A DNA stretch of 64,000 nucleotides from Protaetiibacter intestinalis (GTDB taxonomy: Bacteria > Actinomycetota > Actinomycetes > Actinomycetales > Microbacteriaceae). Under the pieces are notes generated by a model. The model saw nothing but the letters and a program-made list of their open reading frames with translations, ran no database searches and was not told where the DNA came from. Shown one piece after another: positions 22,933 through 27,042 of the stretch (position 1 is its first letter; each line of letters starts with the position of its first letter). The translations under genes were made by a program, and so were the position numbers. The stretch lies in contig NZ_CP032630.1 in NCBI RefSeq assembly GCF_003627075.1, positions 558,001-622,000 of the forward strand, in the 5' to 3' direction.

Positions 22933-23331
22933 ATGGAGCACGCGGCGGAGACCCTCGACCTCGACACCTGCTGGGAGCTGCTCGCCCAGGCCCGGATCGG
23001 GCGGGTGATCTTCTCGGAGGGCGACGACGTGGAGGTGTTCCCGGTCAACTTCTCGATCGGCGGGCGCAGCGTGCTGTTCCGCAGCGCGCCGGGCTCGAAG
23101 CTCGAACTCGTCGCGGAGCACCCGCGGGTCGCGTTCGAGGTCGACGAGCACTCCGAGGAGGTCGCCTGGAGCGTCATCCTGTGGGGCACCGCCGAACGCC
23201 TCGAGTTCGACGACGAGATCGAGCACTCCGGCATCCTGGGGCTCGTCTCGTGGTCACCCGACGAGAAGTTCAACTACGTGCGCATCACCCCCGACCGCGT
23301 GAGCGGCCGCCGCTTCCACCGCGCGGACTAG
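22933..23331 (+). CDS. Pyridoxamine 5'-phosphate oxidase-fold flavin-binding protein
   Basis: A 132-residue split-barrel protein of the PPOX-like superfamily (PNPOx_2 type). It opens with the CWELLAQARIGRVIF helix-strand and continues with VFPVNFSIGGRSVLFRSAPGSKL and VAFEVDEHSEEVAWSVILWGTAERL. It lacks the PdxH C-terminal substrate signature, so it is not a vitamin B6 oxidase. Relatives bind F420, FMN or heme and reduce small molecules. It overlaps the 3' end of nrdB by four bases on the opposite strand and has its own leaderless promoter. Cofactor undetermined. Confidence 0.85.
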   Translation: MEHAAETLDLDTCWELLAQARIGRVIFSEGDDVEVFPVNFSIGGRSVLFRSAPGSKLELVAEHPRVAFEVDEHSEEVAWSVILWGTAERLEFDDEIEHSGILGLVSWSPDEKFNYVRITPDRVSGRRFHRAD

Positions 23332-24326
23332 GACTTGCGGTCGCCGGAGGAGGCGGAGGCGTTCGACTCGTAGGAGGTGTTCGTCGACTCGAAGAAGTTG
23401 ACGAGCTGCAGGGTGTCGTTCGCGGTCGCCATCCACTTGGCCGGGTTCACCACGTTGTAGTGCGAGCCGAAGCCGAGCTCCTCGAGGCGACGGTCGGCGA
23501 GGTACTTCACGTACTGGTTGATGTAGCTCGCGTTGAGTCCGAGGATGCCGTTCGGCAGCAGGTCGTTGTTGTACTGCTCCTCCATCTCGACGGCGTCGAG
23601 GATCATCTGCTTGATCTCGGCCGCGAACTCCGGCGTCTGCAGGTCGGAGTTCTCGTCGAGCACCGTGAGGATGAGGTTGATGCCGAACTTGAGGTGCAGG
23701 GACTCGTCGCGCACGATCCAGTCCATGAGCGAACCGAAGTTGCGCAGCAGGTTCCGCTGACGGAACGACAGCGCCACCATGAAGCCCGAGTAGAACCAGA
23801 TGCCCTCGAGGATGATGTTGTAGGCGATGAGGTTGCGGATGAAGTCCTGCTTGCCCGCGGTCGTCGTGATGTCGAGGGTCTCCTCGGTCATCCGGCGGAT
23901 GTAGCCGACCTCGAACTCCTCCTTGCGCTGCATCGACGGCACGTCGACGTGGGAGTTGTAGGCCTCGTTGCGGTCGATCGGGAACGTCTCGAGGACGTAC
24001 TCGAACGACATGCAGTGGTTGGCCTCCTCCCACATCTGCTTCGCGAGGTAGAGGTGCGCCTCGGGGGCGTTGACGTACGGGTAGACGCCGAAGGCGAGGG
24101 CCTTGTTGACGAGCAGCTCGTTGGGGTTGAAGTAGGAGATCAGGAAGGTGACGGCGTGACGCTCCTCGTCCGTCATCTTCTTGAAGTCGGCGAGGTCTTC
24201 GCCGAGCTGGATCTCGTTGGGGAACCAGGTGTTGGCGACCGCCTGGTCGTAGAGGTCCATCGCCCACTGGTAGGTGACGGGCTTGAGGAGGAGTCCTTCC
24301 TGGACCCCGGTGCCGAGGATGGCCAT
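23328..24326 (-). CDS. nrdB: Ribonucleotide reductase small subunit, tyrosine-free (subclass Ic-like, Mn/Fe)
   Basis: A 332-residue R2 protein. The metal ligands are Glu70, Glu101, His104, Glu174, Glu208 and His211 (NPNELL, EEANH, EGIWFYSGF, RDESLH). The residue that carries the radical in ordinary R2 is Phe108 here (HCMSF), exactly as Phe127 in the Chlamydia trachomatis subclass Ic enzyme. From memory, all these positions keep a constant offset of 19 with the chlamydial protein. A Mn(IV)/Fe(III) cofactor is therefore expected instead of a tyrosyl radical. Trp203 replaces the chlamydial relay Tyr222. Its ATG overlaps the stop of the tail peptide frame (TAATG). It works with NrdA in dNTP synthesis. 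Confidence 0.93.
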   Translation of the reverse strand: MAILGTGVQEGLLLKPVTYQWAMDLYDQAVANTWFPNEIQLGEDLADFKKMTDEERHAVTFLISYFNPNELLVNKALAFGVYPYVNAPEAHLYLAKQMWEEANHCMSFEYVLETFPIDRNEAYNSHVDVPSMQRKEEFEVGYIRRMTEETLDITTTAGKQDFIRNLIAYNIILEGIWFYSGFMVALSFRQRNLLRNFGSLMDWIVRDESLHLKFGINLILTVLDENSDLQTPEFAAEIKQMILDAVEMEEQYNNDLLPNGILGLNASYINQYVKYLADRRLEELGFGSHYNVVNPAKWMATANDTLQLVNFFESTNTSYESNASASSGDRKS

Positions 24327-24409
24327 TATTGGCAGCTCTCACACTGAAGTTCGTCCATGGGGTCGAGCGGCACTTCATAACCGCCGATGGTGTCTCCGTA
24401 GCCGTTCAC
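24326..24409 (-). CDS. Detached C-terminal redox tail of ribonucleotide reductase large subunit (27 codons)
   Basis: The 27-codon frame ends in DPMDELQCESCQ, the CxxC tail that in other class I large subunits sits at the very C-terminus. There it shuttles electrons from thioredoxin to the active site. The nrdA product here has no cysteine in its last 50 residues. The frame starts at a GTG overlapping the nrdA stop (GTGA), has GGAGG six bases upstream (24420-24416), and ends overlapping the nrdB ATG (TAATG). Three readings are possible: a separate peptide, a -1 ribosomal frameshift joining it to NrdA, or a one-base sequence error. The ribosome-binding site and clean overlaps favour real expression. 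Confidence 0.7.
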   Translation of the reverse strand: MNGYGDTIGGYEVPLDPMDELQCESCQ

Positions 24410-26871
24410 GCGAGGCCTCCGAATCCGCGACGCGGCGCGGCGGCCGGTGCGGCCGGGGCCTCGGTCGCCGGGGCGGCCGCCGCGGCACCGAAGCCGCGCT
24501 GGGCGCCGGCGCCGGTGTTCAGCTCCTCGGTCTTGTTGACCTTGACCGTGGACTGCTCGGCCGTGTGGCGCGGCTTCATGTGCAGGTAGTAGGTCGTCTT
24601 GACGCCCTTCTCCCATGCCGCGTAGTAGATGTCCATCATGTCGCCGAGGTCGCGCGTCTCGAGGTACATGTTGCGGCTGATGGCCTGGTCGATCCACTTC
24701 TGGGCGCGCGCCGCCACCTCGATGAACGAGTACGGCGAGAGCTGGAAGCTCGTCTTGTAGACGTTCTTGAGATCGTCGGGGATCTCGGCGATGTTCTGCA
24801 CGTCGCCCTGGCTGCGCAGCACCTGCTCGCGCACGGTGTCCCAGAGGCCGAGCTTCTGCAGGTCGTTCACGAGGTTGCGGTTGACCTCGAGGAACTTGCC
24901 GTTGCTGGTTGCGCGGCTGAAGATCTGCGCGAACTGCGGGTCGAGGCCGGGGGTGGTGCCGGCGACGAGGCCGATGGATGCGGTGGGCGCGATGGCCATG
25001 AGGGTCGCGTTGCGCATGCCGCCCTTGACCTTCTCGCGCAGGCGGTCCCAGTCGAGCCGCGTGGTGCGGTCGACGGTGATCTTGATGCCGCGGTCCTTCT
25101 CGGTGAGCTCGATCGAGTCGAAGGGCACGAGGCCCTGCGACCAGCGGCTGCCCTCGAAGTTGTCGTAGGAGCCGCGCTCGCGGGCGAGGTCGGCCGACTC
25201 GTCGATGGCCGCGTAGGAGACGTGCTCCATGATCTCGTCCATGAGGGCGTACGCCTCCTCGGACTCGTACGAGAACCCGAGACGCTCCACGACATCCGTG
25301 AAGCCCATGACGCCGAGCCCGATGGCGCGGTTGGTCTGGTTGGCGTGGTCGGCCTCGGCGACCGACGACTCGGTGATGTCGATGAGGTTGTCGAGCTGGC
25401 GCACGGCGCTGCGGGCCGAGTCCTCGATGAGGGCCCAGTCGAAGCCGAGGCCGCCGTTCTCGTCGACCTTGAGGTGGGTCGAGAGGTTGATGGAGGCCAG
25501 GTTGCAGACGGAGATGTTCTCGAGGTCCTGCGGGAGGCAGATCTCGGTGCAGAGGTTCGAGAGGTGGATGGTGCCCGTGTTGTTGTTGAGGGCGCGGTTG
25601 TTGATGGTGTCCTTCCAGGTGAGCCACGGGTGGCTCGTGGTCTGGAGCGACATCAGGATGTCCTTGAACTGGGCGCGCGCGGAGATCTTCTTGAACATCC
25701 GCATCTCGCCCGCCTCGGCCTTCGCGGCGTACTCGGCGTAGCGGTCGGAGAACTCCTGGCCGTACAGCTCGTTGAGGTCGGCGACCTCGAGCGGGTCGAA
25801 GAGGTACCAGTCGCCGTCGTTCTGCACGCGCTTCATGAACTCGTCGGAGATCCAGACGGCCGTGTTGGCGGTGCGGGTGCGGCGGTACGGGTCGCCCGAG
25901 TTGTTGCGCAGCTCGAGGAACTCGGGGAAGTCGAGGTGCCAGTTCTCCATGTAGAAGCACAGGGCGCCGAACTTCTTGCCGCCGCGGCTGACCGCGCGCA
26001 GCACCGAGTCGATCGTGTGCATGAAGGGGATCGGCCCGGTCGAGGTGGTGTTGTTGGAGCGGATGGGCGAACCCTGCGAGCGCAGCTTGGTGACCGAGAG
26101 GCCGATGCCGCCCGTGCCCTTGGTGAGCCACATGACGTCGCGCACCGACTTGGCGATGTGCTCGATGTCGTCGTGCATCTCCATGACGAAGCAGTTGGAG
26201 AGCTGCGGGAACGCGGTGCCAGCGTTCACGAGGGTGGAGCCGGCGGCGAGGTACTCGAGCTTCGACATCTTGTCGTAGAACTCGATCGCGTGGCTCGTCG
26301 GGTCGGCCTCGTTGAGCGAGAGGCCCATGGCGATGCGCATCCAGAAGAACTGGGGCACCTCGAGCGGCTCGCCGTTGCGGGCCTTGATGCCGTAGCGGTT
26401 GTTGAGGGTGACGACGCCGATGTACTTGAGCAGGCCGTCGCGGGCGGGCTCGAGGGCGGCGGCGAGGCGGTCGAGGTCGAAGAGCTCGGGGAAGCGCGAG
26501 TCGAGGAGCGTCTCGGCGACGCCGCGCTCGATGGCGCCGCGGAAGTGCTGCGCGTGGAGGGCCTTCAGCTGCTCGTCGGTCGTGTAGTCGCCGAGCACGC
26601 GCTTGTAGATGGTCTTGAGCAGGAGCCGCGCGGCGACGGTGTCGAACTGCGGGTCGTCCTTGACGTTCTGGAGGGCGACCTGGATGACGGCCTCGTCGAG
26701 CTGCTGGGTGGTGATGCCGTCGAACAGGGTCAGCTCGAGCTCCGAGGCGATCTGGGTGACCCAGGTGATGTTCTCGTCGAGCCCCTGGCTCGCGTGCTCG
26801 ATCGCCAGGTTGATCTTGTTGGCGTCGTACGGCTCGCGCTCTCCGTTGCGCTTCACGACGGTGATGGTCAC
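24406..26871 (-). CDS. nrdA: Ribonucleotide reductase large subunit
   Basis: An 821-residue class I R1. It has an N-terminal ATP-cone (about 1-90, VVKRNGEREPYDANKINLAI) for allosteric control and the ten-stranded barrel with active-site Cys227 (SNCF), the thiyl-radical Cys441 (NLCTEI) and Cys456 (VCNLASINL). The usual PTASIG and loop segments follow. From about residue 770 it becomes a Lys/Glu then Ala/Pro/Gly-rich linker (RGFGAAAAAP...RGFGGLA) that stops without the expected CxxC pair; that pair is encoded in the next frame. It starts with GTG after GAAAGGGAT. Tandem NrdR boxes lie upstream. Confidence 0.95.
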   Translation of the reverse strand: MTITVVKRNGEREPYDANKINLAIEHASQGLDENITWVTQIASELELTLFDGITTQQLDEAVIQVALQNVKDDPQFDTVAARLLLKTIYKRVLGDYTTDEQLKALHAQHFRGAIERGVAETLLDSRFPELFDLDRLAAALEPARDGLLKYIGVVTLNNRYGIKARNGEPLEVPQFFWMRIAMGLSLNEADPTSHAIEFYDKMSKLEYLAAGSTLVNAGTAFPQLSNCFVMEMHDDIEHIAKSVRDVMWLTKGTGGIGLSVTKLRSQGSPIRSNNTTSTGPIPFMHTIDSVLRAVSRGGKKFGALCFYMENWHLDFPEFLELRNNSGDPYRRTRTANTAVWISDEFMKRVQNDGDWYLFDPLEVADLNELYGQEFSDRYAEYAAKAEAGEMRMFKKISARAQFKDILMSLQTTSHPWLTWKDTINNRALNNNTGTIHLSNLCTEICLPQDLENISVCNLASINLSTHLKVDENGGLGFDWALIEDSARSAVRQLDNLIDITESSVAEADHANQTNRAIGLGVMGFTDVVERLGFSYESEEAYALMDEIMEHVSYAAIDESADLARERGSYDNFEGSRWSQGLVPFDSIELTEKDRGIKITVDRTTRLDWDRLREKVKGGMRNATLMAIAPTASIGLVAGTTPGLDPQFAQIFSRATSNGKFLEVNRNLVNDLQKLGLWDTVREQVLRSQGDVQNIAEIPDDLKNVYKTSFQLSPYSFIEVAARAQKWIDQAISRNMYLETRDLGDMMDIYYAAWEKGVKTTYYLHMKPRHTAEQSTVKVNKTEELNTGAGAQRGFGAAAAAPATEAPAAPAAAPRRGFGGLA
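24410..24420 (-). promoter_or_regulatory. Shine-Dalgarno site for the detached NrdA tail
   Basis: GGAGG at 24420-24416 lies six bases before the GTG at 24409, inside the last codons of nrdA. It would allow independent re-initiation on the tail frame. An internal Shine-Dalgarno can also stimulate -1 frameshifting, as in dnaX. Confidence 0.65.
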
Positions 26872-26994: not shown

Positions 26995-27042
26995 CCACTA
27001 TATATCGGGCTCCTGACACCGGGCCAACCCTAGATGTTGTGG
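26995..27042 (-). promoter_or_regulatory. Tandem NrdR boxes upstream of nrdA
   Basis: Two sites resembling ACACWATATATWGTGT lie at 26995-27010 (CCACTATATATCGGGC) and 27027-27042 (ACCCTAGATGTTGTGG). Their starts are 32 bases apart, three helical turns, the usual NrdR arrangement. They lie in the 265-base gap between nrdA and a divergent MFS gene. The rest of that gap shows only AT-richer promoter-like sequence. Confidence 0.7.

Follow-up and report, generated by a model that had tools for sequence, protein, structure and literature searches.

Where is the redox-active cysteine pair of the ribonucleotide reductase (RNR) of Protaetiibacter intestinalis encoded? RNR is essential, and in class I enzymes a cysteine pair in the C-terminal tail of the catalytic subunit, NrdA, reduces the disulfide formed at each turnover. 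The NrdA of Escherichia coli carries this terminal pair covalently attached; flexible and tethered, the tail is hard to study. We analyzed a stretch of 64,000 nucleotides of P. intestinalis (the window; contig NZ_CP032630.1, positions 558,001 to 622,000) in which the cysteine pair lies in a short frame of its own between nrdA and nrdB. Our best reading is that the class Ia RNR of this clade would be encoded by three genes, specifying NrdA without a redox tail, NrdB, and a free peptide; we put the probability that the free redox-tail peptide acts in trans on the class Ia RNR at roughly 85%. The features of the locus are as follows.

24406..26871, minus strand: nrdA, 821 amino acids (aa), GTG start; catalytic subunit of a class Ia RNR (NF005101, 1605 bits)
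24326..24409, minus strand: redox-tail peptide gene, GTG at 24409 to TAA at 24326, 27 sense codons, VNGYGDTIGGYEVPLDPMDELQCESCQ
24416..24420, minus strand: GGAGG, a possible Shine-Dalgarno (SD) sequence within the nrdA 3′ end, six bases 5′ of the tail GTG
24406..24409, minus strand: GTGA, overlap of the tail start with the nrdA stop, suggesting translational coupling
24324..24328, minus strand: TAATG, overlap of the tail stop with the nrdB start, as read from the sequence
23328..24326, minus strand: nrdB, radical-generating subunit, 332 aa (PF00268; NF007186 over its cut-off)
27027..27042, minus strand: upstream NrdR-like box of the nrdA operon, CCACAACATCTAGGGT, a paired site by pattern
26995..27010, minus strand: downstream NrdR-like box of the nrdA operon, GCCCGATATATAGTGG, a paired site by pattern

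The order on the minus strand is therefore two NrdR-like boxes, nrdA, the tail frame, and nrdB. The window NrdA ends in ...AAAPRRGFGGLA* and is Cys-free after TYYLH. The initial annotation had described an 821-residue nrdA product with a Cys-free end, and translation and coordinates agreed; it had also placed a 27-codon frame with a cysteine pair between nrdA and nrdB, which we found at 24409-24326 on the minus strand, and the GGAGG six bases before the GTG, the GTGA overlap, and the overlap of the TAA with the nrdB ATG were all present in the sequence. NrdA has the domains PF02867 (552 bits), PF00317, and the ATP cone PF03477. It passed the NrdE_NrdA model (TIGR02506) and scored below the cut-off of the NrdJ_Z model (TIGR02504; 380.6 of 399.95); the barrel did not pass the class II test, and the window RNR is not a B12-dependent class II enzyme. 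The NrdA domains and the adjoining NrdB expected of class Ia were present, and a C-terminal cysteine pair within NrdA was absent. The tail peptide had no Pfam match of its own. The genome is a single contig of 3.1 Mb with the window nrdA as its sole PF02867 match, and the nearest named NrdA is that of Protaetiibacter mangrovi (97%).

Comparison of nrdA-nrdB junctions, as the initial annotation had proposed, showed that the frame break is conserved. In 9/9 genomes of the genus, nrdA ends in RRGFGGL(x)(x), an ATG or GTG overlaps the nrdA TGA, and the tail ends in CESCQ*. Judging from this conservation, we concluded that the split arrangement is more than chance. Conservation did not extend to the GGAGG, which is GGGGG or GGCGG in 4/9 genomes (L003, L006, L007, L008), and the TAATG overlap of the tail with nrdB was not seen in the other eight congeners. 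Among 80 named relatives (genome contigs), 74 were split and none was fused; the outcome that the initial annotation had named as refuting it, an uninterrupted frame in all close relatives, was thus not observed. Of the remaining six, two were truncated and four had no linked tail.

We assembled a clade set of 118 loci, which gave 100 distinct junctions after 18 duplicates were dropped. Nearly all named rows are Microbacteriaceae; a few metagenome-assembled genomes carry other family labels (e.g., L190, Cellulomonadaceae). A separate tail open reading frame (ORF) with its own start was present at 92 of the 100 distinct nrdA ends; six had no adjacent tail, and two were cut by the contig end. 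The tail frame relative to nrdA was -1 in 78/92, 0 behind a stop in 9/92, and +1 in 5/92. Linked tails start with ATG (57) or GTG (35), at an offset from the nrdA stop of -1 in 42/92 and +2 in 30/92, and are 21 to 57 residues long (median, 27), with a consensus ending approximately YxVPxDPMDxLQC[ED]SCQ. An SD-like motif, by a crude pattern, preceded 73/92. Of the 117 clade loci whose nrdA end could be read, counting duplicates, 116 had no Cys after TYYLH; in the remaining one, L019, the frame runs on.

In the genomes read outside the family, the tail is part of NrdA. At the order level, the tail pattern occurred in 16 genomes, 15 of them outside the family, and the tail was in frame with NrdA in 15/15 (for example, L055, ...RRGFGGLQPHVDVIDGEECPVDPMERLQCESCQ*). 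A class survey of 246 genomes yielded 73 with NrdA at an E value of ≤1e-100; of 29 loci taken from outside the family, 27 were readable and all 27 were fused (L113 and L114 were cut). A tail profile run on 394 class genomes matched 27, two of them within the family. The matches read outside the family were NrdA C-termini (L350, L357, L360, L363, L365), and most other class-level matches sit in frames of >850 codons; those in G480 and G625 were weak. The fused tails of the outgroups share the same terminal motif behind variable linkers, the pattern that a tethered docking motif should show. In a tree of 115 NrdA proteins, made by a quick method with a midpoint root and with the truncated L158 and L207 labelled linked by default, the 15 fused rows all fell on one side of a branch with a Shimodaira-Hasegawa-like approximate likelihood ratio test (SH-aLRT) value of 100. 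Weak NrdA-like pieces (33 to 35% identity) were also noted on G005:C129 (L011-L013).

In six genomes, nrdB comes after nrdA without an intervening tail (L151, from Naasia lichenicola; L185; L194; L211; G061; and G023). The tail profile found a tail elsewhere in all six (G754, G755, G756, G757, G061, and G023), and genomes with only off-nrdA tails agree with action in trans. A box pair stands upstream of the free-standing tail in five of the six; in G023, one box is clear and the other is weaker. G061 and G023 have only one RNR large-subunit match each. The six losses of the linked tail need at least four changes on the NrdA tree; G023 is on a long branch, and its placement is unsure. A free-standing copy only was also found in G108 (85% complete, partial NrdA).

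We then asked how closely the tail follows NrdA across the family. In a draw of 150 genomes, the tail was found in 70/70 NrdA-positive versus 2/80 NrdA-negative genomes (Fisher P = 3.8e-41, with genomes counted without correction for relatedness). A reversed tail pattern, used as a control, gave 0 matches in every genome row. The two NrdA-negative genomes with a tail were G120 (77% complete) and G147, which has a 16-codon remnant with one mismatch; this remnant is L362 (G147:C18:26842-26889), and no NrdA of the clade kind matched in G147. NrdA-positive genomes had one tail copy (6 genomes), two (47), three (13), four (1), five (2), or six (1, G049). Since linked-only and free-only genomes both exist, either copy can be lost; both were never missing in the 70 NrdA-positive genomes.

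In the window's genome, the second match to the tail pattern lies at G000:C1:1621888, 1.04 Mb from nrdA. It is a free-standing tail ORF, MNDVDTVGGYAVPVDPMDDLMCESCQ, preceded by GGGAGG, and a free-standing tail gene is present in 9/9 genus genomes. Of 33 loci that we tested, two of which are one and the same gene, 32 have a hadA-like gene beside or near the free-standing tail; the match in G023 is weak (35%). We searched for paired boxes using what we take to be the NrdR box consensus. The paired pattern had exactly two matches in each of the nine genus genomes, before nrdA and before the free-standing tail, and the reversed pattern had 0 matches in these nine genomes. The second pair of the window's genome (G000:C1:1621740-1621786) is 5′ of the free-standing tail gene, outside the window. 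NrdR is encoded (TIGR00244 over its cut-off), so that both sequence features of an NrdR regulon, paired upstream boxes and an NrdR gene, were found. Among 55 distinct bacterial off-nrdA copies, a box pair lay no more than 330 bases away in 31, by the strict pattern in 28 and by a looser one in 3. The 24 copies lacking a pair comprise L082, which has variant boxes, and 23 extra copies, several of which adjoin phage-like or plasmid-like genes or are fused to other domains. A box pair was found upstream of 76/88 nrdA genes, 0/92 linked tails, and 0/79 viral tails. NrdR would bind at the box pairs, and with its own pair the free-standing tail gene should be induced together with nrdAB.

Copies of the tail also occur on phages and plasmids. 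A tblastn search with the free-standing tail matched Clavibacter phages CMP1 and CN1A, Pontimonas phage phiPsal1, and Pan2 (recorded for Pseudanabaena), as well as 19 plasmid records (Clavibacter, 15; Leifsonia, 3; Gryllotalpicola, 1). The terminal CxxCQ* motif was read in eight phage or plasmid stretches, and no nrd gene is annotated in the 8-kb stretches of the phage records L132-L134. Relatives of the cultured hosts have a split NrdA (L213, Clavibacter; L217, Pontimonas). One further tblastn match, within a capsid gene of bajarodmic virus 249 (E value of 6), was discounted as fortuitous. In a scan of IMG/VR, at least 120 stretches matched, and 80 were kept as loci. The tail was a stop-bounded ORF of ≤118 codons in 79 of these and was cut by the contig end in one; 79/80 stretches (1.4 to 15 kb each) had no NrdA or NrdB match. 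Nine viral neighbors that we tested were holin, terminase, portal, exonuclease, tail-fibre, or endolysin/peptidase-like or had no assignable function. The exception is L283 (9780-13977), a viral split RNR in which the tail comes first, then nrdA, and then nrdB (cut by the locus end); its tail ORF is 88 bases 5′ of nrdA, the NrdA ends in KGFGFKSAN and is Cys-free, and the gene holds an intein-like insertion (below the Pfam cut-off). As is characteristic of phage auxiliary metabolic genes, the tail gene is carried by phages that do not have the genes of the host enzyme next to it. Perhaps the extra phage and plasmid copies speed the host RNR, a suggestion we hold less firmly than that of a peptide acting in trans. 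In the phage and plasmid records matched by tblastn, most copies are unannotated or labelled hypothetical. In plasmid NZ_CP065038.1, a 33-aa copy (L135 3962-4063) is annotated as ribonucleotide-diphosphate reductase subunit beta, and Pan2 has an actinobacterial-type tail, ACPNDPADLVSCESCQ, in an unannotated frame (L131 4001-4081). The true host of Pan2 may be an actinobacterium, though a cyanobacterial host is recorded.

The mechanism we propose is as follows. The ancestral C-terminal tail would have been severed from NrdA, probably once, behind a (R/K)(R/K)GFG linker, and would have become a gene of its own, translated by coupling at the nrdA stop. With the tether cut, the peptide would still be able to dock and would bind NrdA in trans; after each turnover, its CxxC would reduce the disulfide in the active site of NrdA, and the peptide would in turn be re-reduced by thioredoxin or a similar donor. 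Translation, binding to NrdA, and redox activity of the peptide are all predicted here from sequence. The trans-acting microprotein put forward by the initial annotation is supported by the varied frames of the tail, the distant boxed copy, and the six genomes without a linked tail. The distant copy, the shared boxes, and the phage and plasmid copies were beyond the reach of that annotation.

The initial annotation had offered a second explanation, a programmed -1 frameshift at the nrdA stop that would yield a mix of tailed and tailless NrdA. The -1 frame of 78/92 linked tails, the window's included, would fit, and the internal GGAGG could stimulate such a shift. However, nine tails follow a stop in frame 0 and five lie in +1, an ATG or GTG is available to all 92, mostly at the offsets of coupled genes (-1 and +2), a distant second copy exists in 9/9 genus genomes, and six genomes have no nrdA-adjacent tail. 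The three frame relations and the universal start codon rule out frameshifting as the general mechanism; the annotation had itself leaned toward re-initiation, and we regard a frameshift as very unlikely. We give almost no credence to the idea that the tail is really fused and that a faulty assembly, a sequencing error, or decay of nrdA hides this. A single indel would produce the split picture in one genome, but the same layout recurs in 9/9 genus genomes and in 74/80 named relatives with 0/80 fused, start codons are kept, and synonymous change in the tail exceeds amino-acid change; the comparative data refute this explanation. It is also improbable, though less so than either of these, that only the linked copy serves in catalysis, with the free-standing and mobile ones acting as regulators or decoys, such as peptides that compete for thioredoxin or that hold RNR activity down. 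Phage and plasmid copies with no RNR nearby would fit such a role, as would copies fused to NrdH-like domains or to domains of no known family. Against it stand the six genomes with off-nrdA copies only, two of them without a second RNR large-subunit match, and the box pair that the free-standing gene shares with nrdAB, as expected of a subunit.

Several observations count against a peptide acting in trans. Of the six genomes that have no linked tail, four may encode another RNR (G755/G144, G754, G756, and G757): G144, which by its identical coordinates seems to be the genome of G755, has a second RNR large-subunit match. G111 and G020 (82% complete) have the linked copy only, so the free-standing gene is not always needed. 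At one junction, L019, the nrdA frame continues 233 bases beyond the tail start; 19/92 linked tails have no preceding SD-like motif; and 12/88 nrdA upstream regions have no strict box pair. The phage and plasmid tblastn matches are weak (E values of 5e-4 to 0.3 with a 26-residue query) and rest on reading of the motif. The pattern or profile used to find the viral and most of the free-standing copies favors CxxC, and the Cys conservation of these copies is partly a product of that selection. The ratio of nonsynonymous to synonymous change (pN/pS), which we otherwise count in favor of the peptide, was 0.37 for linked tails, 0.19 for free-standing tails, and 0.28 for viral tails, the last two values being biased low by the same search. 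Lastly, an AlphaFold2 model of the L147 NrdA read through into the tail (22 rows) had a mean predicted local distance difference test (pLDDT) score of 57.5, with the tail below 50, and is silent on docking.

Fused NrdA tails of other Actinomycetota (L041-L055, L102-L118) have a like terminal cysteine motif and presumably a like role but are covalently attached. The NrdA of Aeromonas phage Aeh1 is reportedly split into two pieces by a mobile insertion in one phage. It is likewise a class I NrdA in two pieces; it differs from the clade described here in that the latter has a detached tail peptide clade-wide. Its NrdA-a and NrdA-b are named in PMC3653736. PMC4520616, which also discusses the cysteine pair of E. 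coli NrdA, describes NrdJa/NrdJb of Pseudomonas aeruginosa, a split class II RNR with its redox C-terminus on a separate gene of the same operon; there, NrdJb is credited with thiol-disulfide exchange, both subunits are required for biological function, and NrdJ is called the only split RNR in a nonviral organism. The likeness to the present system is the redox C-terminus on a separate gene in the operon. NrdJab is a B12-dependent class II enzyme with an NrdJb of 229 residues, whereas the clade has a class Ia enzyme with NrdB and a peptide of ~27 residues and adds a distant copy with NrdR-like boxes and copies on phages and plasmids. Facklamia ignava is reported to have an NrdB with a fused glutaredoxin (PMC6187632). 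This too is an RNR gene rearranged with its reductant; there the redoxin is fused to NrdB, whereas here the NrdA tail is freed, and three genomes have it joined to an NrdH-like domain. We found no description of a detached class I RNR tail in open-license PubMed Central (PMC) text. Split RNRs as such are known, and a detached class I tail would lie at the far end of that kind.

A broader proposal, which we favor with some reserve, is that RNR redox tails can be diffusible, exchangeable microproteins. The family would depend, for its essential class Ia RNR, on a free ~27-residue peptide that is encoded at several loci and linked to NrdR. The phages and plasmids of its members would provide this peptide too, either by itself or, in mobile-looking regions, joined to an NrdH-like domain, and would thereby drive host deoxynucleoside triphosphate (dNTP) synthesis. 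With a naturally separate, titratable tail, re-reduction and tail docking could be tested directly. The findings also draw attention to a set of very small genes on phages and plasmids that probably function in dNTP supply, and they suggest that part of an essential enzyme can move among an operon, a distant locus, and mobile elements.

Some extra copies are joined to other domains. The tail is at the C-terminus of an NrdH-like glutaredoxin domain in L379 1240-1542 (G754:C5), L396 (G120:C176:50449-50736), and L413 (G076:C26:544-783). The best matches of L379 and L396 were NF007657 and TIGR02194, both below their cut-offs, and the CxxC of the NrdH-like domain itself is lost: one Cys remains in L379 and none in L396. 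In L415, L416, L419, and L421, the tail is fused to a small domain (MSTLITDT...), for which the L416 copy had neither a Pfam nor an NCBIfam match; two of these copies, L419 and L421, come from G133. The extra tails L414, L417, and L430 adjoin genes that, by eye, resemble those for single-stranded-DNA-binding proteins.

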